64,000 nt of DNA, taken from NCBI RefSeq assembly GCF_018986435.1, contig NZ_JAHMIN010000018.1, forward strand, positions 1 through 64,000, in the 5' to 3' direction. Both the position numbers and the translations under genes were made by a program. Below, piece by piece: positions 4,875 to 58,290 of this stretch (position 1 is its first letter; each line of letters begins with the position of its first letter). The stretch is from Hahella sp. HN01 (lineage in GTDB: Bacteria > Pseudomonadota > Gammaproteobacteria > Pseudomonadales > Oleiphilaceae). Under the pieces are notes generated by a model. It ran no database searches and was not told where the DNA came from. It was given only the letters and a program-made list of their open reading frames with translations.

Positions 4875-5228
4875 CTACGCAGCAGTAGACCAACATAGCA
4901 TGAAGTAGAGTGATTGCTCTTTCCACATTAAAGCCTTGCTATTCCAGTCGTTGCACACCAGCGTAAACTCTTTGCAGCGGTCTTGCCCCGAAATATCCAG
5001 TTTTTCTCTAAGTGATGCTGAAATATCTTTTACAAATCTCATATAAAAACCATAATCTCTTGGCGTCATTACTCTTTTCCCCCAAGCGTATTCCAAACAT
5101 GCATCGGCAAATTCGTCTCCGGACTTCCAGCGATCCCACCTTGACTTTATTAACACTATTGCTTGCTCCGAACTCGCAGATTCAAAGCAATATTGATTGA
5201 ACTCCTTAACTATCTTTATAGATGGCAT
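4875..5228 (-). CDS. Small hypothetical protein
   Basis: A 117-residue protein, helical and Trp-rich (RWDRWKSG, CNDWNSKALMW), with no signal peptide or membrane segment. I recognise no family. It lies on the minus strand in the same AT-rich group of small genes, 60 bp upstream of its neighbour, so the two may be co-transcribed. Length and style resemble immunity proteins, without direct evidence. Confidence 0.55.
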   Translation of the reverse strand: MPSIKIVKEFNQYCFESASSEQAIVLIKSRWDRWKSGDEFADACLEYAWGKRVMTPRDYGFYMRFVKDISASLREKLDISGQDRCKEFTLVCNDWNSKALMWKEQSLYFMLCWSTAA

Positions 5229-5456
5229 ATAAACTCTAATAGCTACCTTATTAACTCACAGGCGCTTCTCTAAGCGTAAAATACGACAAAACTACAACAG
5301 GTCCCATATCATTTTCAGCAATTCCAAATAGTTGCTATCTTTTTGTTATTATGAACCAGTAACACTCACCGTTCATACAGCCAAACGTCGGCTCCATCTC
5401 CAACTTAAGGGAGCAGCTTAAGCCCCCAGAGAACAAAGCGGACTGCCTGTCAAGCA

Positions 5457-5876
5457 TCACTGCTCGTACTCACCGCTTACTGATGCGGCAAGTTCCAATA
5501 GTTCCTGATAAGCCTCGTGATGATGGTCAGCTGATAGCATATTTTTGTCGAACTTTAAAAGCTGAGCTTGCATCTGAATTAGAGATTCAGGTGATGTAAT
5601 TGAGTCTGCGATAATAGAAAATGCCGTGATAGACACTTCAAAGCTGCCGGTCAAGACTATATCTACAAGAACTTCCATAAAAGCTTCACAGTTGAATGCA
5701 CTTAAGGCGTATACGAGCGTTCCTCGGTGGTTAATATTCTCAGGCTTTGTGATTGCCCGGAAAAGTGGCTCGACTGCACGTTCATCACCAAGATCCATTA
5801 GAGTTAAAGCTGATCTATTTCTAATTGAAGCGTCTGAAGACGCCAAATCGCGGATAAGTGCCTGAACTTCACACAT
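5457..5876 (-). CDS. Small HEAT-like repeat protein
   Basis: A 139-residue protein built of HEAT or PBS-lyase-like helical repeats: SSDASIRNRSALTLMDLGDE, RAVEPLFRAI and then HRGTLVYALSAF are typical repeat signatures. Such scaffolds mediate protein-protein contacts, and many small HEAT proteins in toxin loci act as immunity proteins. The start ATG is followed directly by the first repeat. It is probably cytoplasmic. The partner is unknown. Confidence 0.65.
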   Translation of the reverse strand: MCEVQALIRDLASSDASIRNRSALTLMDLGDERAVEPLFRAITKPENINHRGTLVYALSAFNCEAFMEVLVDIVLTGSFEVSITAFSIIADSITSPESLIQMQAQLLKFDKNMLSADHHHEAYQELLELAASVSGEYEQ

Positions 5877-6221
5877 AACGGATTAATACCTAAAAACTTG
5901 TACATTTCACCTTCTGCCCGTATAGAGTATACCGTAGAATTTCGGGCGGCTTAAATCACGTAAGAACTTACTTAAGCATATGAGCATTTGCGTGGGCCTG
6001 ATTATTACCAGGCCGGGCTATTAAACCGCCATGACTTTTAGAATTCTATTCTCGCAAAAACGTGCTTCCTGGCGCTACAAATAGTGGGGATTCAATATGT
6101 TAAATTCTATCTTTTATCTAATGCAAAAAAATCGCCGCATCGTGGCCTACCTTCAGTCAAACTTTAGCTATAATTTAATCGGCGCCATGTAAAATTGGAT
6201 TAACTGCAAAGGAATATTGCA
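5877..6221. other. Divergent intergenic region
   Basis: 345 bp between the HEAT-like gene (leftward) and the secreted DUF4360 gene (rightward), so it must hold both promoters. A TATAAT at 6169-6174 is a plausible -10 element for the rightward gene, without a convincing -35. A 6-bp stem GGCCTG/CAGGCC sits at 5995-6014. No gene is seen. Confidence 0.4.
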
Positions 6222-6857
6222 ATGAGAAAGATAATTTATATCAGTACTTTATGTCTATTTCTCATCTCATCCGCATCTTGGGCCTATGAGTATCCTGCTG
6301 ATCCCTATTGGACGGTGGAACTTGCCGGTGCGTGGGGCTCTGGTTGCCCACATCCAAACGAGGTTCGCGTAGTACCAACTCCAGACTATAAGACCATCGT
6401 AGCTAGGTTTGATGACTATCATGCTAATACTGACACTTCTCCTGTTGGAGTCGATTTGGCCAGATGCAATATCACTATATGGGTATGGGGGTATCCGGAC
6501 TATCAGTTTTCATGGGTTGGAATGAGGTATAGGGGTTTTCTTTATATGGACGAGGGATCCAAAACCTTATTGGAGGCGGACTATTATTTTAACGACACCC
6601 CGGTTCATCAGCACTTCAAAAGAGAATGGAATCCCGACTATCCTATAGCAGAAACAATGTACATAGAGGACAAATTCTTCCCTCCCTCATACAAGTGGTC
6701 CGAGTGTGGGGAAGGTGCTTTAGTAACACTCGATTCGGCTTTAACCGCTTTTAAACACAATGGAAATTTTGCACAGATAATGCTTACCCATAACGATATC
6801 ACGACAGAAGTTTACTTCCAGCTAGACTGGAGACCATGCACTCCACAAGCTGAGTAA
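6222..6857 (+). CDS. Secreted DUF4360-like protein
   Basis: A 211-residue protein with a Sec signal peptide (MRKIIYISTLCLFLISSASWA). The mature part resembles the DUF4360 family: an early GSGCP motif, then a VARFDDYHA strand, a central Cys (ARCNITIWVW) and the FSWVGMRYRGFLYMDEG strand. These are exported proteins of unknown function known from several bacteria and fungi. Cys residues at GCP, ARC, EC and RPC could form disulfides, fitting an extracellular location. An AAAGGA ribosome site lies about 9 bases before the ATG. Unlike its left-hand neighbours it is exported, so it could be a secreted product rather than an immunity factor. Confidence 0.7.
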   Translation: MRKIIYISTLCLFLISSASWAYEYPADPYWTVELAGAWGSGCPHPNEVRVVPTPDYKTIVARFDDYHANTDTSPVGVDLARCNITIWVWGYPDYQFSWVGMRYRGFLYMDEGSKTLLEADYYFNDTPVHQHFKREWNPDYPIAETMYIEDKFFPPSYKWSECGEGALVTLDSALTAFKHNGNFAQIMLTHNDITTEVYFQLDWRPCTPQAE

Positions 6858-7252
6858 GACACTTGGGCAATGGCGCTGTATTTTTAGTAAGGTCAAGTAT
6901 GTACTCTTTTGGTGAACAGACAGCATTATAATGATTTTTCCTGTTCCTGTTTACCAAGGGAGTACAGCTTCCGAAAAACACTAAAAATTTTCGCACCGCG
7001 ACCTGCCATTCACAAAGCCGACACCATCTGCCGAGATCACAACAAAGATGCGCAACCATTTCTTTACGGGCCAATCTGATACATAACACATTGCTCTGCC
7101 AAGAGAGCCCGATATTTGGCTTTCAAACAGGGCACATTATAGTACTTTCATTTTTTCAATGGAAAAATAGTGCATAGCGATATATATTCAAATCCACGAA
7201 ACCTTAAAACCCACACATCATACAGCAACCAAAATTTCATTTAGGCCATATC
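6858..7252. other. Intergenic stretch, no gene recognised
   Basis: 395 AT-rich bp. A 96-codon minus-strand frame crosses it but overlaps the 3' end of the DUF4360 gene, has no ribosome site and has low-complexity composition, so I do not call it. The promoter of the next rightward gene should lie at the right edge. Confidence 0.4.
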
Positions 7253-7879
7253 ATGGGAATATATGCTAGTTATTACCTTGGAAGGAAAGACGGTATAGAA
7301 AGCATAGTATTTGAAAACCTTCCCAAGTTAATCGAATGCTTGGATAACTGCAAACTGAATTTCCCTGAGGATTACAACGAATCCATTCACAAAATGTCTA
7401 TTCATATGAATAATGTTGGGCCGTCATCACTTGATGTTAGCACTGAGGAAGAAGCGACCCTTATTGATAGGGTTGTATCTGAGCTATTACTTTACGACAC
7501 TCTAGGTTTAATTACTGGCATTGAGGATTCTCTTATTCAATGGATAGAAGTGCCAATAATGAAGAGATACAGATATGCCCATGACTTAAAGTCAATACTT
7601 CCAAACAGTTCAGGATATGCCCGAGAACTTTATAGGAGAATACTATTTGAAGGTATGTCGATGGCAAATCGCGGTGGGAGTGTATATAAGCTTAACAATG
7701 ATTTGGATACCATTTCGTGGCTACTACCTCATGAAATTGAAAGATTCATGCCCGAGCTCTCTACCATTATAGAAAAACCAAACTTCGATAACGACGAGGA
7801 AGTTGGAATTTACATTATCCATAGCGCAATGAGTAAAGCACAGGAAGAAAACTGTGCTTTGATCGTTACAATTGGGTAG
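7253..7879 (+). CDS. Hypothetical protein, about 208 residues (immunity-like)
   Basis: A soluble, acidic, mainly helical protein without signal peptide or transmembrane segment. It begins MGIYASYYLGRKDGIESI and has DNCKLNFPEDY and YDTLGLITGIEDSLIQW regions, but I recognise no family. AT-rich codon use matches the neighbouring orphan genes. It is the only such cytoplasmic-looking gene of the block on the plus strand. It converges on the next gene. Confidence 0.6.
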   Translation: MGIYASYYLGRKDGIESIVFENLPKLIECLDNCKLNFPEDYNESIHKMSIHMNNVGPSSLDVSTEEEATLIDRVVSELLLYDTLGLITGIEDSLIQWIEVPIMKRYRYAHDLKSILPNSSGYARELYRRILFEGMSMANRGGSVYKLNNDLDTISWLLPHEIERFMPELSTIIEKPNFDNDEEVGIYIIHSAMSKAQEENCALIVTIG

Positions 7880-7911
7880 TAACCAAGCACCAGGATGACA
7901 GCCATCCAGTT

Positions 7912-8337
7912 CTAGTCAAACTCCTCCATCAACTCAGTCACACATAACGCTTCAAAATCAATCTGACTGACTATGCGCCGGAGTTTCTCAATAGGTTCTT
8001 CCTCTTCCTGATGCCAGCAAATAGTCAGGGTCTTTTTTTCACGCTTGTAAGCACCGTCTTCCTGGGGTTTGTAGCTTGATACGCCGACTACCGCGCGCCA
8101 GTATTCACCCGGAGGCAAATCGCTGGTATCCCGTGGAAGTTCGGCTATTTCTTTTTCAAGCTCGTCCAGCCCCCAATAGAACATACCAGGGCTTTCGCTT
8201 ATATCACGCTGCGCTCTTTTCATGCGCATTTTCCTTATCATAAATGGAGAGCCTTCAAGGATGTACATGAAAGCGTCAGTTCCCTCTATTTGAGATAGAG
8301 AAACGTCAAATCCGGTTTTATCTGTAAATTTCCGCAC
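7912..8337 (-). CDS. Hypothetical protein, 141 residues
   Basis: An acidic soluble protein with no signal peptide and an unknown domain. The end is rich in Glu and Asp (ALCVTELMEEFD). A central Trp-containing segment (FYWGLDELEKEIAELP) and a Pro-Gly-Glu turn (DLPPGEYWRAVVGV) suggest a compact alpha/beta fold. It ends the AT-rich small-gene block. From here rightward, composition returns to the GC-richer style of the core genes. Confidence 0.55.
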   Translation of the reverse strand: MRKFTDKTGFDVSLSQIEGTDAFMYILEGSPFMIRKMRMKRAQRDISESPGMFYWGLDELEKEIAELPRDTSDLPPGEYWRAVVGVSSYKPQEDGAYKREKKTLTICWHQEEEEPIEKLRRIVSQIDFEALCVTELMEEFD

Positions 8338-8458
8338 ATCATACCTCTAGGTCGCGTTATAAATTCAGATAGAAAGTTAGCCCCTATTTATATTGAACCT
8401 GCGTATTAGAGTTCACTCGAGCACGACGTTCTTAAACTTGCGGCTATGATGTCGTTTT

Positions 8459-9064
8459 TCAGCGCGTCGTCAACCCTGCCGCCGCTCCACATACGAGTAA
8501 AGCGAATCCTGATGATTTATTTAACACGGATTGCGCCTGTGCGCCGGCCAGCCATCGCCGGACACGGTTGGCCGCCATGGCGTATCCCGCCAGGATGAGG
8601 AAGACGATAACAAGGAACAGCGGCCCCAGTGTCATGAGTTGTGGGCCGACAGGTGTGTTGGCGTCGAGGAATTGAGGGAAAAACGCGATGAAAAATCCAA
8701 TGATTTTAGGGTTAAGCAGGGTGACGCCCAAGCCTTGTTTGAATGGATTTTGTTTGGCGACTTCAGTCGCGCCGGACAGATCTTCCGTTGAAGGCTGGCT
8801 GCAAAGCTGGCGTACTCCCAGATATGCGAGATAGGCTACTCCAAACCATTTCAGCAAATTGAACGCCAGTGCAGAAGTCTGCACCAACGCCCCCAAACCT
8901 GAGACAGTCAGGCACAGCAGCATTGCATCAGCGACCACCACGCCCAGACTGGTGAATATCCCCTGCCCCAGACCGCTGCGCAGCGTATTGGCGATGACCA
9001 ATAGCATGGAAGGGCCTGGCGCCAGTGTGATCAGCACTGTTGCGACAATAAAACTCACTAACAT
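8459..9064 (-). CDS. LysE/RhtB-family amino-acid exporter
   Basis: A 201-residue inner-membrane protein of the LysE/RhtB family, which exports amino acids or related small molecules by proton exchange. The hallmark LAPGPSMLLVIANTLRSGLGQG follows the first membrane helix, and NPKIIGFFIAFFPQF marks the central region. About six hydrophobic segments are visible, the usual number. A strong AAAGGAG ribosome site precedes the ATG. It lies 48 bp downstream of the DUF2000 gene on the same strand, so the two probably form an operon controlled by the divergent LysR gene. The exact substrate cannot be read from sequence. Confidence 0.9.
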   Translation of the reverse strand: MLVSFIVATVLITLAPGPSMLLVIANTLRSGLGQGIFTSLGVVVADAMLLCLTVSGLGALVQTSALAFNLLKWFGVAYLAYLGVRQLCSQPSTEDLSGATEVAKQNPFKQGLGVTLLNPKIIGFFIAFFPQFLDANTPVGPQLMTLGPLFLVIVFLILAGYAMAANRVRRWLAGAQAQSVLNKSSGFALLVCGAAAGLTTR

Positions 9065-9112
9065 TTGGTCTCTCCTTTGTTATTCCGCGCCTTTGGATGG
9101 CATTTGCTGGCG

Positions 9113-9541
9113 TCAGCGCAGCAGCCCCAGATTGCCGGTGAATTTATTAACGATCTTTTTGGGTCCGCAAAGGGCGACACCCAGATACTCAAGTTCATCA
9201 ACCGGAGTGGAATGCAACTTTTCCGCGTAGGCTTCATAGCTCTTGGTCGTCATGGTGGCGCTGGTGAGATCGATAACGGTCAATTGCGGCTCGTGCTCCT
9301 TCAATTCTTCCCGCAAGCTGCGCAGGCGAACGCCTTCGGCGCGCAGTATTGGAATGGCTGTGGTGGTAATTCCCGCGCGAAGATGACCGTTATGGTCCGG
9401 CAACGCGTCGCCAATTAATTCGGGAAAGGCTTTACCCAGCGATAACGCTAACACAGCGGAGGTATTGGCGATGGGGCCGATCGGCAGATTGGCGTCGATG
9501 ACTATGACGCACTTCAGGTCAGGAGTTTTATTATCCGTCAT
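9113..9541 (-). CDS. DUF2000-family protein
   Basis: A 142-residue cytoplasmic protein of the DUF2000 type, a small alpha/beta fold related to peptidyl-tRNA hydrolase II. It begins KCVIVIDANLPIGPIANTSAVLALSLG, typical of the family, and ends with the GVALCGPKKIVNKFTGNL motif. The frame extends upstream, but the ATG at 9541 is preferred: a GAGGA ribosome site precedes it and family similarity begins there. In many genomes such genes sit beside LysE exporters and LysR or AsnC regulators, as here, but the biochemical role is unknown. The 109-bp gap to the divergent LysR gene should hold the shared promoters. Confidence 0.75.
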   Translation of the reverse strand: MTDNKTPDLKCVIVIDANLPIGPIANTSAVLALSLGKAFPELIGDALPDHNGHLRAGITTTAIPILRAEGVRLRSLREELKEHEPQLTVIDLTSATMTTKSYEAYAEKLHSTPVDELEYLGVALCGPKKIVNKFTGNLGLLR

Positions 9542-9650
9542 CCGTTGTTTCCTCAGAATAATGTGATCAATGGCTGAGAAAACTATATGCGCACGGAATA
9601 GCGATGATAATATGGGCCAATTCATTTTCACTGATCGATAATATCGAATA

Positions 9651-10550
9651 ATGATTGACGATTTACGCGCTCTGGCGGTTTTCGCCAAAACGGTGGAAGC
9701 CGGCTCTTTTCGCGCCGCGGCGAGTGCGCTGTCATTGTCGCCTTCCGTGGTCAGCCACCATATTTCAGGACTGGAGACACGGCTAGGCGTCGCCCTGCTC
9801 TATCGCTCCACTCGACGACTCTCGCTCACCAGCGAGGGCGAACGTCTGTTCGAACACGCCAAGGCCATGCTGGCGGCAGCGGAGGCCGGTTTGAACGCCA
9901 TCGCCGAACAGGCGGCGGAGCCGACCGGCAAGTTGAGCATCACCGCTCCCGCCGTGTTGGCGCGCGGCCCCTTTACCGAAGACGTCGCCGCTTTTGCGTT
10001 GGCTTATCCCAGGGTTTCGCTGTGTATAAACTACAGCGATATAAGACAGGACCTGATTCGCGACGGCATTGACCTGGCGATACGCATCGGCGCGATGCCC
10101 GACAGCGCCCTGAAATCGAAAAAGCTTTTCGACCTGACCCGACGTCTGGTGGCGTCGCCCCATTATCTTCAATCCAGAGCGACGCCCAGCAAACCGGAAG
10201 ACTTGCTGGACTGGGAATGGATCGGACTGCAGATGCGACCGAACTATAAGTTGCTGTACAACGCCGCAGGAGAGTGTCATCGCGTTGACTATTCACCACG
10301 CATTACCGTGGACAGCATTGATGCGGTTTGCCAGTTGGCCGCAGCGGGACTCGGTTTAGCCACACCACCGGCTTTTCTGGTGGAAGAAGATCTGCGTGTC
10401 GGGCGATTATGCGATCCCCTGCCAGGCTGGAACGTCGACGCCTTGGGCGTCTATGCACTCTGGCCGCCCAACGCCGCGAGAGAAAGCCTGACCTATCGGT
10501 TTATTCAGTTTTTGCAGGAACGCCGCCAAGCCGATGCGAACACCGGCTAA
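9651..10550 (+). CDS. LysR-family transcriptional regulator
   Basis: A 299-residue LysR regulator of the large subgroup with an EAGSFRAAASALSLSPSVVSHHISGLE helix-turn-helix and LGVALLYRSTRRLSLT wing (residues 1-62). The effector-binding domain follows, with GKLSITAPAVLARGP, then IDLAIRIG and a late AAGLGLATPPAFLVEEDL segment typical of the subgroup. It diverges from the DUF2000-LysE pair, which is its likely target. The ligand is unknown. Confidence 0.9.
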   Translation: MIDDLRALAVFAKTVEAGSFRAAASALSLSPSVVSHHISGLETRLGVALLYRSTRRLSLTSEGERLFEHAKAMLAAAEAGLNAIAEQAAEPTGKLSITAPAVLARGPFTEDVAAFALAYPRVSLCINYSDIRQDLIRDGIDLAIRIGAMPDSALKSKKLFDLTRRLVASPHYLQSRATPSKPEDLLDWEWIGLQMRPNYKLLYNAAGECHRVDYSPRITVDSIDAVCQLAAAGLGLATPPAFLVEEDLRVGRLCDPLPGWNVDALGVYALWPPNAARESLTYRFIQFLQERRQADANTG

Positions 10551-51257: not shown

Positions 51258-53021
51258 TTACGCCAGCATCTTCATCACAAGATAGATGAGTATGCCGATA
51301 GCCAGCATGATCCACCCTGTTTTTGCGTGAGATTCGCCCTCAGGACCTGGCGCGGGAGGTTGCGCTTGCTGTTGCGGGCGTGTCGGCGCAGGCGCTTGCG
51401 CTGGCTCAGCGTCTACAGACGATGGGACAGGAGTCGCCTGCGCCTTCTGCGCCGCTTTCTCCGCCTTGCGCTCTTCCTTCACCTGCTCCGCTGTCTTCTC
51501 CCGTTCCGGCGCGGCGGCCGCTTGCGCCTGCCACCAGTCTTCGCGGGGCGCTTCGCCTTTCGCCGCCTTCAGACGCATGCGTTTTTTATTCAACGCCAAT
51601 ACCCGGGACGGCTTCACTTTCACGCCGTATTTGAGCTTCAGCTGCGCCACTTTCTGCTGTAGCGGCACGCCTTTTTCAGGGTTCACCATCGCCACATAGT
51701 TAGCGAATCCGTCAATGACGGCGAACAGCTCTCCCCGCCCCCAGGTTTTACCAGCGGGACCGTCTCTATCGATTTGAAACAACAGCGCACGAAACCGCTT
51801 CAGCTGTTTTCTTTCCACCGAAGCCTTGTCATTTACGACGACGCCGGTGACTTCCTGTCTGCGATGTTTGCGCATAATCCGAGTTTTATCCGGGTGCACC
51901 ACAAAACCTTCATCCTTGATGATGCTACGGCAGCGCCACAACAGACGCTTGACGTCATCGTCCGACTTGCCGTCGGCGGAGAAGGTCACGTCATCCGCGT
52001 AACGGGTATAGGTGAATCCAAGTTTGGCTGCCATGCTTTGCAGACGGCGATCGAGCTTTCGGCAAATGACATTACTGATCGCCGGACTGGTGGGCGCGCC
52101 TTGAGGCAGAAAGCGTTCACCTTCGCTGACAAACCATTTCTGGCCGTCCATTTCCACTTCCTGCACTTTCTGCTGCGAACACAGCAGCCCCAGAATAGTG
52201 GCGATTTGCTCGCTGTAGCCAAGATGGCGAAACGCGCCTTTGATGCGCGCATAGGAAACTGTTGGGAAGAAGTCCTTCAAGTCCAGGTTAATAACCACGT
52301 CTTTGCCCACGTGAGGCTGCGCATTAGACACAATGGAGCGCTCGACGACAAAGCCATGCGCGGCCTCATGCAGAGAAAGCGGCGCCAATATGTTGTCCAG
52401 AATCCAATACTGCGCTCTCTTCATACGCGGCATGGGAGCGGAAATTTCGCGCACGCCGCCGGTTTTCTTGGCGATAGCGAATTGCTGATAGTGACTGAGC
52501 TTGGACACCTCTTTGTTGTAGGCGAGGAAACGCAATTCGTTCAACGTCACGCCCATCGCCGTCGCCAACTCTTCGGCGGCGTTTATGACCGGCAGATTCT
52601 GACTTCGTAGACGCGCGTCATCTGAGGCTGCATCGCCCAATCCCCCTGACACGTTTTCACCAAGGTAGGTGATCTGTTGCGCCTGCACTTCGCGCCAGTG
52701 TTGCGCCCGCTGGAATCGCTCTTCGTTGCGCTTGCGACGCGTCTCTTCCCGCTTGGCCAGCGCCGCCTTCTTGCGCTGTTTGTGCATTTCCTTCAGCGCG
52801 TCCTCTGGATCGGAGTACAGCATCTGTTGCCGCCCCAATTCCCGCAATGCGGCCTGTAACTCAGCGCGTTTTTTGATAAACGCTTCCGACAAAGAAGGCT
52901 TTTCCGAGTTGTCCGGCCAAAAGCCCAAGCGCACCATTTCGGAGAGAATGTACTCGTCCTTGCTGGTTTCACGGATGCGTTGGTAGATTTCCTGACGGGT
53001 CAGTTTTTTCTCTTCGCTCAT
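51258..53021 (-). CDS. Retron reverse transcriptase with N-terminal extension and C-terminal membrane anchor
   Basis: A 587-residue protein. The RT core (about residues 150-470) has retron hallmarks: NAQPH (233-237, the NAxxH motif), catalytic Asp residues in LDLKDFF (246-252), PQGAPTSPAISN (306-317), YADD (341-344) and VTG (391-393). This type of RT copies part of a partner ncRNA into msDNA. Before the core is a charged, helical extension of about 140 residues, Arg/Lys/Glu-rich (residues 80-106). After it is an Ala/Pro/Gln linker (500-566) and a hydrophobic C-terminal helix (GWIMLAIGILIYLVMKMLA). That suggests a tail-anchored RT, which is rare. GAGGAGG precedes the ATG. The ncRNA lies just upstream. 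Confidence 0.93.
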   Translation of the reverse strand: MSEEKKLTRQEIYQRIRETSKDEYILSEMVRLGFWPDNSEKPSLSEAFIKKRAELQAALRELGRQQMLYSDPEDALKEMHKQRKKAALAKREETRRKRNEERFQRAQHWREVQAQQITYLGENVSGGLGDAASDDARLRSQNLPVINAAEELATAMGVTLNELRFLAYNKEVSKLSHYQQFAIAKKTGGVREISAPMPRMKRAQYWILDNILAPLSLHEAAHGFVVERSIVSNAQPHVGKDVVINLDLKDFFPTVSYARIKGAFRHLGYSEQIATILGLLCSQQKVQEVEMDGQKWFVSEGERFLPQGAPTSPAISNVICRKLDRRLQSMAAKLGFTYTRYADDVTFSADGKSDDDVKRLLWRCRSIIKDEGFVVHPDKTRIMRKHRRQEVTGVVVNDKASVERKQLKRFRALLFQIDRDGPAGKTWGRGELFAVIDGFANYVAMVNPEKGVPLQQKVAQLKLKYGVKVKPSRVLALNKKRMRLKAAKGEAPREDWWQAQAAAAPEREKTAEQVKEERKAEKAAQKAQATPVPSSVDAEPAQAPAPTRPQQQAQPPAPGPEGESHAKTGWIMLAIGILIYLVMKMLA

Positions 53022-53176
53022 CTCAACGCCCTCCTCTCAATGCCGGTGACAACCGCGTACTGCAGCGACCAACGCGCACGGCGGCGGACCGACTTGCAAC
53101 AGTGACGGATAACGATTTGAGTGCGGGGAATGATAATGAGGACGCATAGGAGCGCGCCGAGACGGCGCAAAAAGAA

Positions 53177-53191
53177 GGCGGTAGCGCGACA
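53177..53191 (-). repeat. Retron a2 repeat arm
   Basis: On the transcribed strand it reads TGTCGCGCTACCGCC and pairs with a1 over 15 bp. It lies 155 bp before the RT start codon. Confidence 0.85.
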
Positions 53192-53237
53192 TGGTTTCCC
53201 TTCGTAGAATTCTCAGAACTGGACTGATCAACTCGAC

Positions 53238-53311
53238 GCCGTACGCACCACCTATCGCTCATTGGTTTCGTAGAAACCAAACCGCAATAGCGATAGGTGG
53301 TGCAGTACGGC
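53238..53311 (-). repeat. msd long hairpin
   Basis: The arms (CCGTAC-GCACCACCTATCGCT and its partner) pair perfectly except for one bulged base. The tip is closed by an 8-bp TTGGTTTC/GAAACCAA stem with a 3-base loop. This is the part expected in msDNA. Confidence 0.85.
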
Positions 53312-53391
53312 CCAGTAAAGATCTGGCCAGTGAAGCGTGATAAGTCTAATAGCAAGAACGGCGATCCACCGCTCGGATTGCAAGGTAGTTT

Positions 53392-53406
53392 TGTCGCGCT
53401 ACCGCC
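53392..53406 (-). repeat. Retron a1 repeat arm
   Basis: On the transcribed strand it reads GGCGGTAGCGCGACA, perfectly complementary to the a2 arm. It forms the closing helix of the ncRNA. Confidence 0.85.
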
Positions 53407-53474
53407 GTCGAGCAGTATAACAACCTGGGCGGAGCAAGCAAACCCCGCCGTTGATTTAACAGGAAAAATTGCGT

Positions 53475-55148
53475 TCATCGCCCTGCCTCCTCTGCGCCAG
53501 CGAGCACATAAGGATGCTGTATCTGATGTTGCTTACGCAGCGCCAGCATGTGTTCACAGGGGCCTTTGCGCAGACGATTGTGCACATAGAAGTGACACTG
53601 GCATTCACCCTGACGCAGTCGTTGATCGGCGTCTATCGACACTTTGGGTCGGTAAGCGACGGCGTTGTCGGTCACCTCTCCCTGCAATGACAGTACGCCG
53701 TCGTTGACGTCCACCGCGCTCAGTTTCACCAGATTGGCTTTGTTGAAATTCTCCGCCATCTCCTCACGCTCATTGGCGTAACGCAACTGCGTCATCGGCA
53801 ACGGCTCGCGACTCAACTCGCGGATACGGTAAACCCCTTCCGCCAGATCGAACAGAACCTGCCCCTGCTGGCTATAAATGGACAGCGCGGATTGCACCAC
53901 GGTGTCGTCCAGCCCCAAGCGGGCGGCCAGACTACCGGCGCTTTCCAGCCAGTTTTCCTGTAGTCCGTGATAGACGCGGCGCAGTGTGATCTCATCTACC
54001 TCCGCTCGCGGCGCCATCAGGTCAAAGTTACCCATACGCGACCAATCGTTGGCGCTCCAGCCGGACAGACCCAAGGTAAAGGTCAGATCTCCCATTTCCG
54101 CCACATAGAAACTGGGCAGGCCATCTCCCATGAGGTGCACGACGAATTTGTCCGCTACCGGAATCAAGCGCTCCAGAATATGCAGACGACGACGTCCCCA
54201 CACACGAATGCTTCGCGCTTCATGGCCCTGATAGATTGAGCGACTGCATACCACCTCTTCGCCCCAGGGTTCGAATATCACCCGCACCGGCTTGCCGGGC
54301 TCCAGCTCGTAACGCATCGCCCGCGGTCCGACCCGCTCTTTCTTGCGACGCAGCACATAACACAGGTTATGCACGTCCATGGGCTGCAATTCCACCTTCA
54401 CCATCGGCAACGTCATCGCCGAACTGACTTGTAGAAAACCGCGCACCCAGCTTTCCGGCAGATCGATTTTCTTCTCATCGAACTGATCGTCATCGCCGGT
54501 CTGCACGCTAAAGCCGCCGGGGTCTACCTGCAACAGCGTTTCCCGATAATCGCGGATTTTCTGGAACTCGTTATACAGCCCCTGGGAGTAATCAATGTTC
54601 GTGGTGCCGCAGGCGGTGTCGCTGATGGTTTCAAACACCTCGTAACCGCAGCTCAATTTGCCGTAACTGGATTCATCTTCGGAAAAACATTCGAAGAATA
54701 CCTGGTCCGGATGCACTGTGATCACCGGGTCCAGCACATACCAGGCGTCCAGGTCATGCTTGTATAGATAGTTAAAGTAATTGCGCTGTGCGTCGTAATA
54801 CGGCTTGAGCACTTTGTCGCTCTGCTTGTTCAGATCGTCCAGCTCGCTGCGTAGAGAGCGAATCTCCGTCTGCAGCGACTCTTTGCGGGACATGAATTCC
54901 GCCAGCATGTTCTGCTCTTCCTGAGCCAGCCAGCGTTTGTATTCTTCTTTGTCTTTGGGCTGAAAACGCATGTCGGAAATGACTACGTTATGCAGCGCGG
55001 ATATCGCTTCGCGAAAGGCGATATGTTTTCTCAGTTTGCCGACGAAATGGGTCGGCGGCCGCAGGCTGTCCGGGGCGAAGGACAGATCCGTCTTGCCCGC
55101 ATTGCTGTCCACGCGGCTGTGTCCGTGATAACGGTAACGAAACTCCAT
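53475..55148 (-). CDS. Winged-helix and SWIM zinc-finger protein, retron partner
   Basis: A 557-residue cytoplasmic protein. The N-terminal 160 residues are charged with a coiled-coil segment (SLQTEIRSLRSELDDLNKQSD). A central region includes QPMDVHNLCYVLRRKKERVG. A winged-helix-like segment (residues about 395-450) reads SLAARLGLDDTVVQSALSIY, then GQVLFDLAEGVYRIREL. A SWIM zinc finger follows near the end (QCHFYVHNRLRKGPCEHMLA with CxC...CxH). Retron classifications include a group with a WH-SWIM (WHSWIM) partner, which I recall as type XIII (not verified). AAGGAG precedes the ATG at 55148. It follows the WGR gene by 10 bp and precedes the ncRNA by 68 bp. Confidence 0.85.
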   Translation of the reverse strand: MEFRYRYHGHSRVDSNAGKTDLSFAPDSLRPPTHFVGKLRKHIAFREAISALHNVVISDMRFQPKDKEEYKRWLAQEEQNMLAEFMSRKESLQTEIRSLRSELDDLNKQSDKVLKPYYDAQRNYFNYLYKHDLDAWYVLDPVITVHPDQVFFECFSEDESSYGKLSCGYEVFETISDTACGTTNIDYSQGLYNEFQKIRDYRETLLQVDPGGFSVQTGDDDQFDEKKIDLPESWVRGFLQVSSAMTLPMVKVELQPMDVHNLCYVLRRKKERVGPRAMRYELEPGKPVRVIFEPWGEEVVCSRSIYQGHEARSIRVWGRRRLHILERLIPVADKFVVHLMGDGLPSFYVAEMGDLTFTLGLSGWSANDWSRMGNFDLMAPRAEVDEITLRRVYHGLQENWLESAGSLAARLGLDDTVVQSALSIYSQQGQVLFDLAEGVYRIRELSREPLPMTQLRYANEREEMAENFNKANLVKLSAVDVNDGVLSLQGEVTDNAVAYRPKVSIDADQRLRQGECQCHFYVHNRLRKGPCEHMLALRKQHQIQHPYVLAGAEEAGR

Positions 55149-55158
55149 CAACGGCTCC

Positions 55159-58100
55159 TTAATATTCTCTTACTTCGGCGGGCTTGACGCTGAGCGGCGT
55201 TCCCAGTTGCGGATAGTGGCGACGCAGGTCCAACAGGGCCTTGATCAACGCAGCTTTGTCTTTGTGCACGACGGTCAGGGAAATGCGGGTGAACAAATCC
55301 GCCGCCATATTAGCCACCTGCTCATTGAGCAGCGACTGTTCAGATAAAAACGCCAGAATGCGATCCTTACAGACGCGACTGCGATTCACCTGCGACAGCA
55401 CCGTGGTGAAGTAGCCTTGCAGACTGAGAATGCGCTCTGGGTATCCGGCGGCGTATTCATTGAGGAAGTTGCTCACGAAAAACTGCACATTAGCCGAAGG
55501 GTGCTGACTGAGCTTCAACAGATACTCGACGCCATTCTGTTCCTGGAAGAAGCGCTGCAGCAGCTCCATGCCATAGCGCTGCACGTCCGGCCGCACGCTG
55601 TCGCACAGGTAGACCACCAGCTCAGGCGTCCACAGGGTTTCGCCCGCTTCCTCATAATGGCTGCGGAAGAAGGCGAAGCCGAACTCGCGGCAGTCATCCC
55701 AGTCTGAGTCCAGAATGCGCAATGCGTCGCGAATCTCCGCCAGAATACGATCCGGGTTGGCTTCATAGGCGTCATAGGCGTACTGACGCACCGCCACGTC
55801 TGGATGCTTGGCCAACTGCGCCCACTGACGGACGCTAAACTGCAATGGACTGCGCGCCTGCAACAACAGCGCGCCTATCTGCTGCGCGCCGGTGGATTGC
55901 GCCTGCAGCAGGCGCCAGCAAGTACTATCGTCCACAGCGTCGAACGCGGCGCTGAGCGCGTCTTTGAAGAACACCAGCCATTCTTCCCGCTGACCGTCCT
56001 GCTTTTCGCTGCGGAATGTATACGGCAACAAATGATGCAGAATCGCCTCCGCCCATCCCCGTTGCGCCAGCGCCAAACGTTTCAGAATAGCGGCGGCGGC
56101 ATTGCGATCATCCGCTTCGCCTTCAAAGAATTGCAGGGCGAGCACGCCCGCCTGTTTGACCAGTTCGGCATCCGGCTGTTTGCCCAGCAACAAGGTCTGG
56201 CATGCGCGCACCGCCGACGAGTCCGACTGCATGATGTGTTGCAACAGGCGTTCGGGAATATCGCCAAAACCGACGCCATGAGCCACCAGCAAACGCGCGC
56301 CGAATAATTGCAATGCCGTATTGCGCTCCGCCAGCAGACGGTCGATCAAGTGCAGGGACAATTCCCGGCAGGCGTCGGCGAAGCGGGCGATACAGAAGTC
56401 CGCCAACCAGACGGCATGGGATTCCTGGGACAGTGCTGGCGGCAATTCAGGGGTCGTGTGCAACGCCTGCTCAATCAGGGTGTGCAGGCACTGCGCCTGA
56501 TCCGACGCCGTCCAGGGATATTGCGCAGTCTTGTCCGCCGCAAACCGGCGCACTTCTTCGTATTGCGCTAGCAATAACGCCGCCAGTAACGGCGCTTCGA
56601 CCAGGGTCGCCGGCGGCATTTGCGCAAGAATTTCCATCCCTAACGCCCGCGCTTCATCCAGACCGCTGTTCAACAGCGCCAGCAACAAGCCATGTTCGAT
56701 ATGGCCGTCCAGGCGGGTCCGCGCCAACTGCAAGGCAAATCGCTGAGTCGCTTCATAGCGGCTGCGCAGCAGACGCTCAATATCAGAGACAGCAATGTCC
56801 GCGCAAAAAGACGTGTTCGCAGCCAATACCTTGCTTGCAAACTCATGCACCGGCTCACACTGGCTCTCCAACATTAAGCGCAAAGCGCAGTCAGGACGCT
56901 GATCCCACAAATGAGAGAAGGCTTCCTCACGGGCGTCCGCCGCGCGCTCATCGGAGACTTTCAACCAGGCTCGCCCACTGGGGGCCAATTTATACTGCGC
57001 GCTATCGCCTCGTAGAATGTGATTGAACGCAATCAGGCCCGCGTAATGATCATAGAAATTACGCGCGACCAGCTTGTGCTCATAACGTCGACCATTACGC
57101 TCCCAGCGATAGATATCCGCTTTGCGGGTTTCTCCCGCGTCCGCATCCGACACGGTAAGCAGCATTTCCGTGGCCATGTCGACATAGCGTAAATCGCCCA
57201 CCTGCCCGATGCGCTTGATGCTGCGCCAGCTGCGACGACGCAGGTAATTGCGGGTCTTATTGGAGTAGGCGACTTTGGGATCGGGCTTTTTCAGCTCGCT
57301 TTTCGGTTTGAAGCTGCCCACGCCCGGCAACCAGGCCCAGTCCCATTGGTATTGGAAGAATTCACGACTGGTTTCAAAACGACGCGCCAGCAGGGCGAAC
57401 ATCGGGGCGTCCAGACGGAACTCGGCGGCTTTGTAGATATAACGTACGCCACTGAATACGCCAGGCGCCAGTTTGCACTGACTGAGCCAGCCGTACAGCG
57501 CCTGATAGAGCGCAGGATAATACAGCGCCAGCAGATAAGCGTTTTTCAATAGATCATTGGCGCCGGCGGGCGCGGCGTTCAAACCGTTTTCCAGTTGCAG
57601 ACGCACGCCCACGTCGTCGCCGGAAGTCAGCGCCTGTTGCAAGGGCGACGGCATCTGATTCCATTGCGTTTGCAACAGCGTCATTCTTTGCGAGGGGTCA
57701 GTCAGGGCCAGGATCGACTCAAAGGCCATGGCGCTGACGGTGCTGTTTTTCGAGTTCTGCAAACGATGCAGATCTTCCATGTAATCTGTCGCGCGAATGC
57801 GGCCCAGCGCCCAGGCCACCGCGAAGTCCTGTAGCCAGTCCCCTTTGCCGACGCACGCCGCCAATTCTTGCCCGGCTTCAGGGCGCCCCAATTCTCCCAA
57901 ACGCCATATCAGACGGGCGCGCTTGCCGTTATCCCACTCCTGACGCAGCTTTTCCAGTAACTTCACCAACAGACTGGTCGGCCCTTCCGGCATGGCGGGT
58001 TTGACCTGGGCGTCGTTCGTTGAGGCCGCTGGCGCGCCGCGATTGACGTCGTAATAGCCTTTGTTGGTTTTGGAGACAACGACACTGTCGAACAGCCGTT

Positions 58101-58290
58101 CCGCCTCTTCCAGCGTCACCGGCGCAGGCGTTTTGGTGCCTTCGCGCAGCGCGCCGCCCTGGCGGCCATAACGGAAATTGACGAGGAAGCGGTCGTCCTT
58201 GCGGCTGGCGACTTCACTCAGCTCAACCTCGTAAACTTTGTTGGAGTTTCCTTCCTGAAAATGCAGGCTGGCCTTTTTTATCAGCTTCAT
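55159..58290 (-). CDS. Large WGR-domain, HEAT-like repeat protein, retron partner
   Basis: A 1043-residue protein. Residues 1-85 match a WGR domain (KLIKKASLHFQEGNSNKVYEVEL, then NFRYGRQGGALREGTK; WGR reads YGR here), which in PARPs binds nucleic acid ends. The rest is built of many helical repeats of HEAT or armadillo type (ALGRIRATDYMEDLHRLQ, FASKVLAANTSF, AVRQYAYDAYEANPDRILAE). No ATPase or nuclease motif is seen. It is the first gene of the inferred retron operon, 10 bp upstream of the SWIM gene; an AAGGAT site precedes the ATG. It may be the sensor or the effector scaffold. Confidence 0.85.
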   Translation of the reverse strand: MKLIKKASLHFQEGNSNKVYEVELSEVASRKDDRFLVNFRYGRQGGALREGTKTPAPVTLEEAERLFDSVVVSKTNKGYYDVNRGAPAASTNDAQVKPAMPEGPTSLLVKLLEKLRQEWDNGKRARLIWRLGELGRPEAGQELAACVGKGDWLQDFAVAWALGRIRATDYMEDLHRLQNSKNSTVSAMAFESILALTDPSQRMTLLQTQWNQMPSPLQQALTSGDDVGVRLQLENGLNAAPAGANDLLKNAYLLALYYPALYQALYGWLSQCKLAPGVFSGVRYIYKAAEFRLDAPMFALLARRFETSREFFQYQWDWAWLPGVGSFKPKSELKKPDPKVAYSNKTRNYLRRRSWRSIKRIGQVGDLRYVDMATEMLLTVSDADAGETRKADIYRWERNGRRYEHKLVARNFYDHYAGLIAFNHILRGDSAQYKLAPSGRAWLKVSDERAADAREEAFSHLWDQRPDCALRLMLESQCEPVHEFASKVLAANTSFCADIAVSDIERLLRSRYEATQRFALQLARTRLDGHIEHGLLLALLNSGLDEARALGMEILAQMPPATLVEAPLLAALLLAQYEEVRRFAADKTAQYPWTASDQAQCLHTLIEQALHTTPELPPALSQESHAVWLADFCIARFADACRELSLHLIDRLLAERNTALQLFGARLLVAHGVGFGDIPERLLQHIMQSDSSAVRACQTLLLGKQPDAELVKQAGVLALQFFEGEADDRNAAAAILKRLALAQRGWAEAILHHLLPYTFRSEKQDGQREEWLVFFKDALSAAFDAVDDSTCWRLLQAQSTGAQQIGALLLQARSPLQFSVRQWAQLAKHPDVAVRQYAYDAYEANPDRILAEIRDALRILDSDWDDCREFGFAFFRSHYEEAGETLWTPELVVYLCDSVRPDVQRYGMELLQRFFQEQNGVEYLLKLSQHPSANVQFFVSNFLNEYAAGYPERILSLQGYFTTVLSQVNRSRVCKDRILAFLSEQSLLNEQVANMAADLFTRISLTVVHKDKAALIKALLDLRRHYPQLGTPLSVKPAEVREY

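Follow-up and report, generated by a model that had tools for sequence, protein, structure and literature searches.

A type XIII retron of Hahella sp. HN01, with a partner protein modelled as clamp-like and a reverse transcriptase that is probably membrane-anchored

What kind of retron is encoded at positions 51,258 to 58,290 of a 64,000-nucleotide stretch of Hahella sp. HN01 (assembly GCF_018986435.1, contig NZ_JAHMIN010000018.1, positions 1 to 64,000; hereafter the window), and how might its parts act together? In order of transcription, the minus strand carries a WGR-HEAT gene, a winged-helix SWIM (WH-SWIM) gene, a 453-nt gap containing a non-coding RNA (ncRNA) and a reverse transcriptase (RT) gene (Table 1). 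Family models and synteny indicate that the locus is almost certainly a complete type XIII retron. It is an additional member of an already catalogued, hardly studied type, and nothing departing from that type was found. The main leads to its mechanism are a partner protein modelled as clamp-like and a probable membrane anchoring of the RT.

The assignment to type XIII rests on PADLOC-DB, in which the best model of each of the three proteins is a type XIII model covering most of its length, and on Ec86 (Eco1) being the closest solved RT by sequence (E 1.5e-44, residues 136-418). The RT scores 652 bits with RT_XIII and 336 bits with the next model, RT_other, and the HEAT-ARM_XIII model is also matched at the locus (4e-33). 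Compared with the Ec86 RT, that of the locus is extended N-terminally by about 135 residues and has in addition a linker and a hydrophobic C-terminus. NAxxH and VTG are named motifs of retron RTs; both, together with YADD, are present in the locus RT and in all 58 relatives with complete RT genes. The order of genes and ncRNA is also shared with relatives. One source classifies retrons into 13 types (PMC12548924); another counts sixteen subtypes (PMC13405049). Two further retron-like RTs are found in the same genome, at about 28919-30757 of contig C60 (L023) and 106857-108218 of C69 (L022); they were typed as RT-Toprim of type I-C (6.4e-227) and RT_other (7.3e-128).

A sequence-only reading of this DNA had described a retron of three same-strand open reading frames (ORFs; 55159-58290, 53475-55151 and 51258-53021) with a structured RNA between the second and third, and this layout is confirmed. 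The SWIM frame runs for 558 aa from a TTG at 55151; given its ATG at 55148, the 10-nt gap after the WGR-HEAT gene is as had been claimed. The RT motifs (NAQPH 233, QGAP 307, YADD 341, VTG 391) and the arrangement of a1/a2 arms and msd hold as well, and the gene trio with its ncRNA is conserved in relatives. The retron identity itself is supported, a group II intron RT or an RT of a diversity-generating retroelement being rejected with just 65 bits for group_II_RT_mat against a cut-off of 300, and RT_XIII best. The description of the WGR protein as an unusual extra component is not supported. PADLOC counts WGR_XIII, SWIM_XIII and HEAT-ARM_XIII among the parts of type XIII, and the protein is therefore a regular part of such systems.

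To collect relatives, a SWIM alignment was run against one genome for every one of 84,980 species, which gave 312 confirmed stretches, and the best 80 were kept; their loci and genomes are cited below by L and G numbers. Folding of a 251-nt piece containing the ncRNA gives a minimum free energy of -116 kcal/mol, compared with a mean of -73 for shuffled sequences (z -8.8, 0/200 shuffles). Among 37 sequences of less than 86% similarity, 43 of 51 pairs changed on both sides and 92.6% of cells pair, and none of 500 shuffles reached any of five covariation measures. The fold is thereby shown through covariation in the sequences. As the same RNA adjoins the genes of relatives in other phyla, with 43 of its 51 pairs covarying, its structure is not a product of chance. 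Its segment at 53218-53331, the msd, would be the part that is reverse-transcribed.

A model of this RNA (R1), built from the 37 sequences, which match it by construction, locates the ncRNA in 73 of the 80 loci (71 through the model alignment, plus L040 and L100) and fails to find it in L047, L051, L053, L057, L059, L088 and L093. A pattern search gives a core of 184-192 nt, nearly always 185-188, in several phyla; one R1 match, the second copy of L083, is longer (236 nt). The flanking a1 and a2 arms beat all 100 shuffles in 60 of the 80 RNAs, out of 82, with enough flank for the test, the locus RNA included, and are no better than chance in L103, L058, L080 and L072 (61, 48, 32 and 28 of 100 shuffles as good). 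Conservation is also evident within the genus. In three congeneric genomes the block from a1 to a2 (53174-53409) shows 0, 1 and 0 differences, and the remaining 217 nt of the gap 26, 32 and 26; the SWIM gene differs at 37/252, 62/251 and 58/242 four-fold sites and its product at 5, 9 and 16 of 559 amino acids. Across four congeneric genomes the 239-nt block (53172-53410) has a single variable position. An Rfam identity was not obtained, as three miRNA families matched the palindrome, all under the gathering score. The ncRNA is single-copy in its own genome. Pairs of type XIII ncRNAs occur within one locus in L045 (3874-4056 and 9697-9884), L082 (9687-9870 and 9942-10125) and L083 (5522-5757 and 6003-6190), and such loci possibly make two multicopy single-stranded DNAs (msDNAs) per system.

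The WH-SWIM protein carries a SWIM zinc-finger motif (CxC...CxH) at residue 517. Of 60 aligned members, 56 have a match to Pfam SWIM (E up to 5), the locus protein itself lying under the Pfam cut-off (17 vs 19.6 bits). An AlphaFold2 model based on 60 sequences has a mean predicted local distance difference test (pLDDT) score of 82.8 and a predicted template modelling score (pTM) of 0.80. In a Foldseek search of the PDB with this model, 382 entries matched at E <=0.001, the best of them at E 3.0e-7 with a probability of 1.00, and the best 50 of the 382 are all sliding-clamp entries, among them PCNA, the 9-1-1 complex and the African swine fever virus clamp; in clamp-loader complexes the matched chain was assumed to be the clamp. 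The template modelling (TM) score by target length reaches 0.66. Among the BFVD viral models, 24 of the 50 matches listed bear the name PCNA or beta clamp; the rest of those listed are unnamed, uncharacterised or otherwise named, the first being an uncharacterised archaeal-virus protein. From a reading of the secondary structure, the clamp-like part is predicted to span residues 35-362 or so and to contain a coiled-coil insertion (69-132).

Several results weigh against a clamp. The TM scores by query length are just 0.25-0.32 and the root-mean-square deviations mostly 7-10 A, and a search of the PDB with a SWIM sequence profile brought up no clamp at E up to 1. Nor is there a clamp among the 25 Pfam families listed for the 60 SWIM members. 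By the model, the SWIM core nevertheless appears to have a sliding-clamp fold, recovered in two libraries, as a likeness of fold without likeness of sequence. The PCNA and DnaN clamps would thus share the fold of part of the SWIM model, from which they differ in that SWIM has no detected sequence similarity to them and adds a coiled-coil insertion, a winged-helix-like part and the SWIM part. No strong hydrophobic segment was found in the SWIM protein family (maximum hydropathy 1.53 in 84 proteins).

For the WGR-HEAT protein, Pfam reports WGR (3.8e-05) and HEAT_2 (1.4e-11), and AlphaFold2 predicts an N-terminal beta domain followed by a long helical solenoid (mean pLDDT 89.3, pTM 0.67), whose fold matches are HEAT proteins in general, such as CAND1, karyopherins and PP2A A. 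R283, K287, E290 and D294 (57409-57444) are invariant in an alignment of 47 sequences with a mean column identity of 33%; in the model they lie on or just past a single helix (279-292), and they could be a binding or active site. Segments with a hydropathy of at least 2 occur in just 1 of 65 WGR proteins. Pfam, NCBIfam and PADLOC contain no enzyme domain that scores above its cut-off in either SWIM or WGR.

The RT ends in a predicted transmembrane anchor, GWIMLAIGILIYLVMKMLA, with a 17-residue hydropathy of 2.42; the segment is kept in the relatives L136 and L137. The tails of 59 RTs (that of the locus and those of the 58 relatives with complete genes) were classed by eye and by a hydropathy threshold into 13 transmembrane, 27 with a Trp-rich tip (e.g. 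KPWWKFW, KKWWKLW, WWDVM), 5 amphipathic (e.g. GLVAWLRSLLR), 12 with none and 2 unclear (L031, which is beside N, and L062). On an IQ-TREE phylogeny of the first 470-480 RT residues these classes require 8 changes, compared with a shuffled mean of 28.6 (0/200 as low). The interchange of transmembrane, amphipathic and Trp-rich ends at one place favours membrane attachment, and the RT is probably anchored in the membrane through its C-terminus. To our knowledge, membrane anchoring of a retron RT would be new.

Against this, the amphipathic class taken alone is unclustered on the tree (55/500 shuffles as low), and acidic Trp tips occur (WWDVM, WWDVL), a poorer fit to membranes. The tail-less class consists of all 12 cyanobacterial RTs of the set, and anchoring can therefore not be essential. 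By eye, no shared membrane gene that might replace the cyanobacterial tail recurs among ORFs of at least 60 aa between SWIM and RT in 13 loci, 12 of them cyanobacterial and one from a planctomycete. Thirteen further cyanobacterial RTs, encoded apart from their SWIM genes, also have no such tail by eye, although the C-terminus of L117 is longer, and the two other RTs of the Hahella genome have none either. It has also to be considered that the tail is a protein-docking motif, its Trp-rich tip binding SWIM or the host beta clamp instead of the membrane. A WWxLF-like tip following a Pro/Ala-rich linker at the very C-terminus may resemble the clamp-binding pentapeptides QL[SD]LF; the SWIM protein has a clamp fold by model, and a Trp-rich or hydrophobic tip ends 27 of the 59 RTs. 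The proteobacterial clade, however, has transmembrane or amphipathic helices at the same place, and the amphipathic L094 is sister to the Trp-rich L097, a swap more natural between membrane binders, so that docking appears improbable and anchoring is preferred.

Among the 80 loci, a WGR match is present in 72, an RT match in 56 and both in 55. In 43 the RT comes after SWIM at no more than 700 nt, and in 5 the order is reversed; 24 have no RT, several of them on contigs that simply end. Fourteen of the RT-less loci, all cyanobacterial, were chosen for a wider search (L040 was left out), and in 13 of the 13 genomes searched an RT_XIII match (E <=2.8e-189) was found outside the SWIM locus. Seven of these matches are free of stop codons and six cross one or two, five of the latter having open frames of 474-499 aa and L116 one of just 407 aa. 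In the genome of L045, RT and SWIM lie 1.19 Mb apart on one contig; draft genomes cannot reveal such distances. The ncRNA lies at the SWIM locus in ten of the 13 genomes, beside the RT in one (L114), and in neither of these loci in L057 and L059. Of 25 cyanobacterial RT loci examined, 6 carry an RNase III gene near the type XIII RT: it was found in L028 (11475-12248), L029 (9455-10168) and L109 (2948-3721), all three with Pfam Ribonuclease_3 and dsrm, and as tblastn matches of about 50% identity to the L028 protein in L118, L119 and L120. This enzyme may process the ncRNA.

Whether parts so far apart belong together can be judged from their co-occurrence. In an even sample of 146 cyanobacterial genomes, centred on that of L045, which was thus a chosen member, matches were obtained for the RT in 9 (E 1e-100), SWIM in 8 (1e-40), the ncRNA in 6 (1e-8) and WGR in 5 (1e-60). 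All four parts coincide in the same five genomes (G284, G300, G310, G330 and G415), in three of which the RT stands apart, at 1.19 Mb in G284 and on another contig in G300 and G415. This coincidence despite a separate RT supports joint function without linkage. The other matches are an RT with no SWIM in G336, G360 and, together with a weak ncRNA match, G332, RT and SWIM with neither WGR nor ncRNA in G400, and a short SWIM alone in G296 and G302. Closer to Hahella, the SWIM gene occurs in 4 of the 7 genomes of the genus, the same four having the flanking glycosyltransferase, and the system in 7 of 274 genomes of a sample of the class.

In two loci the partners occur with no RT linked to them, which counts against the mechanism proposed below. 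L014 (G117, 5064-10102) consists of a WGR gene in two pieces and SWIM, with no RT within 15 kb, and would be a decayed or RT-less version; its next gene, with a lipoyl ligase domain, begins at the SWIM stop. L019 (6580-10772) encodes a shorter SWIM_XIII-like protein (457 aa, 1.1e-54); its neighbour is a large gene of no known family in which a PADLOC scan found no match, and here too 15 kb contain no RT. The clamp-like module may thus be wider than retrons.

Table 1. Features of the retron locus (window coordinates)
Feature	Position	Strand	Description
WGR-HEAT gene	55159-58290	minus	1043 aa; type XIII component; PADLOC WGR_XIII E 0 (residues 1-1040)
WH-SWIM gene	53475-55148	minus	predicted clamp-like fold, then winged-helix-like part, then SWIM zinc finger; PADLOC SWIM_XIII 1.4e-238
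Putative ncRNA promoter	53414-53441	minus	TTGCTT, 16 nt, TATACT; script pattern; weak
Retron ncRNA, a1 to a2	53172-53410	minus	239 nt; inverted repeat, fold energy, covariation, conservation
a1 arm	53392-53409	minus	18-nt inverted repeat, 94% complementary; 15-bp perfect run
msr stem-loop (helix 2)	53356-53374	minus	8 pairs, 99.3% of cells paired
msd, base helix 3 and long hairpin	53218-53331	minus	helices 3-6 of covariation model
msd base helix 3	53320-53331 paired with 53218-53229	minus	covariation model
msd long hairpin	53239-53310	minus	covariation model
a2 arm	53174-53191	minus	partner of a1, 200 nt apart
Retron RT gene	51258-53021	minus	587 aa; N-terminal extension about 1-135; PADLOC RT_XIII 1.5e-196; Pfam RVT_1 3e-25
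RT C-terminal hydrophobic segment	51261-51317	minus	GWIMLAIGILIYLVMKMLA; residues 569-587; predicted transmembrane anchor

The putative ncRNA promoter was found by script in L105-L107 as well, and its TATACT lies at an equal distance in L038; in a promoter scan of the locus this candidate fell under the threshold.

A role in phage defence may be proposed by analogy with other retrons. The immediate neighbourhood speaks against it, in that no known defence gene was found with Pfam among the seven neighbours scanned. Four of them contain Pfam families (an Asp/Glu racemase, a glycosyltransferase, a VTT-domain protein and ETF-QO) and three none; the glycosyltransferase also passes the cut-off of the GT4-conflict model, named for conflict systems, more weakly than it matches general glycosyltransferase models.

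The literature searched yields no mechanism for type XIII retrons. Searches for a link of retrons with a sliding clamp, SWIM or a membrane likewise yielded no paper. We propose the following sequence of events. The RT would copy the msd of the 239-nt ncRNA into a branched msDNA with a long DNA hairpin, and its C-terminal helix would hold the resulting RT-msDNA particle at the inner membrane. The SWIM protein would bind the msDNA hairpin and, with WGR-HEAT as a scaffold, form a restrained complex. A phage that displaces, cuts or modifies the msDNA would then free the clamp-like SWIM/WGR-HEAT pair, which could then be loaded onto DNA and obstruct its replication or transcription. The outcome would be abortive infection through DNA occlusion, and occlusion is proposed instead of a recognised nuclease because no known catalytic domain was found in either partner. 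As a whole this mechanism is tentative, and we think it somewhat more likely to fail than to hold; taken together with the secure type XIII identity, the combined account falls a little short of an even chance.

An analogy is provided by the type IX retron Kva2, whose msDNA sensor is reported to be bound by a phage protein mirroring its winged-helix partner (PMC13405049). Kva2 resembles the present locus in that a winged-helix protein is encoded, as a second partner, beside the RT and ncRNA. The locus differs in that neither HEPN nor any other known toxin domain was found in it, WGR-HEAT standing in the place of HEPN, and in that SWIM combines a clamp-like model with a zinc finger.

WGR, winged-helix and SWIM are all types of DNA-binding domain, and it is conceivable that WGR-HEAT and SWIM are a regulatory or repair pair for which the msDNA is a ligand, controlling host genes instead of killing the cell. 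The occurrence of a SWIM-like gene without a linked RT and the frequent dispersal of the cyanobacterial genes would fit such a role. Nor does every retron RT tested defend: the RT and RT-DNA of one operon are reported to have been uninvolved against the phage tested (PMC12548924), and msDNA has been tied to intestinal colonization (PMC4569332). The usual description of retrons is, however, that of anti-phage systems (PMC12548924, PMC13405049), and the patchy distribution, in 4/7 genomes of the genus and 7/274 of the class sample, fits defence. Host-gene control is accordingly considered unlikely. Alternatively, the modelled clamp-like domain could be the sensor, a clamp mimic that triggers the system when it is bound by the clamp-binding motifs of a phage polymerase; the clamp fold of the SWIM model and the viral and phage clamps among the BFVD matches listed agree with this, and we regard it as quite unlikely.

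Within the mechanism preferred here, that of an msDNA-restrained SWIM/WGR-HEAT pair, the msDNA step is put forward because of the retron motifs, the a1/a2 arms and an inverted wobble signature. A transition in a Watson-Crick pair gives G-U or A-C equally often. A folding RNA tolerates G-U, whereas in the folding complementary DNA it is the pair written A-C in RNA letters that is read as G-T. In an alignment of 78 distinct type XIII RNAs fitted to the ncRNA model, the non-Watson-Crick pairs of the msr stem comprise 110 G-U and 0 A-C, the former confined to 4 of its 8 pairs, and those of msd helices 3-6 comprise 10 G-U, 66 A-C and 83 other mismatches. The 31 rows of less than 75% identity give 43 G-U to 0 A-C in the msr and 5 to 30 in the msd. 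The sequences are related, and p-values for these counts are therefore not to be read literally. When 37 sequences are aligned separately with MAFFT, the counts are 0 G-U and 15 A-C for helix 3, and 18 and 28 for helices 4-6 together, so that the A-C effect is strongest in helix 3. This excess is as expected if the msd has been selected as complementary DNA, as far as the sequences can tell. That it reflects an alignment or mutation-bias artefact, or an antisense RNA instead of msDNA, is decidedly doubtful: the counts come from a model-fitted alignment of related sequences and the MAFFT excess beyond helix 3 is modest, but the sign is kept in base helix 3, and transitions alone predict equal G-U and A-C, the msr stem of the same RNAs being opposite in sign. 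We are not aware of an earlier published application of this test, no literature search having been aimed at one.

More broadly, type XIII retrons might be membrane-tethered msDNA sentinels with an effector or sensor of PCNA-like clamp fold, a clamp that the msDNA restrains and WGR-HEAT loads once it is released; in the filamentous cyanobacteria they would be a dispersed but co-inherited cellular system and not a mobile cassette. In its entirety this picture is rather unlikely to prove right. A clamp-like partner, if true, would be a new mode of retron action, with testable predictions on both sensing and killing. The RTs that are unlinked from their ncRNA and partners provide a natural test of which parts must cooperate. 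Finally, wobble polarity offers a means of mapping, from sequences alone, the part of a retron RNA that is selected as DNA, and it could be extended to other retron families.

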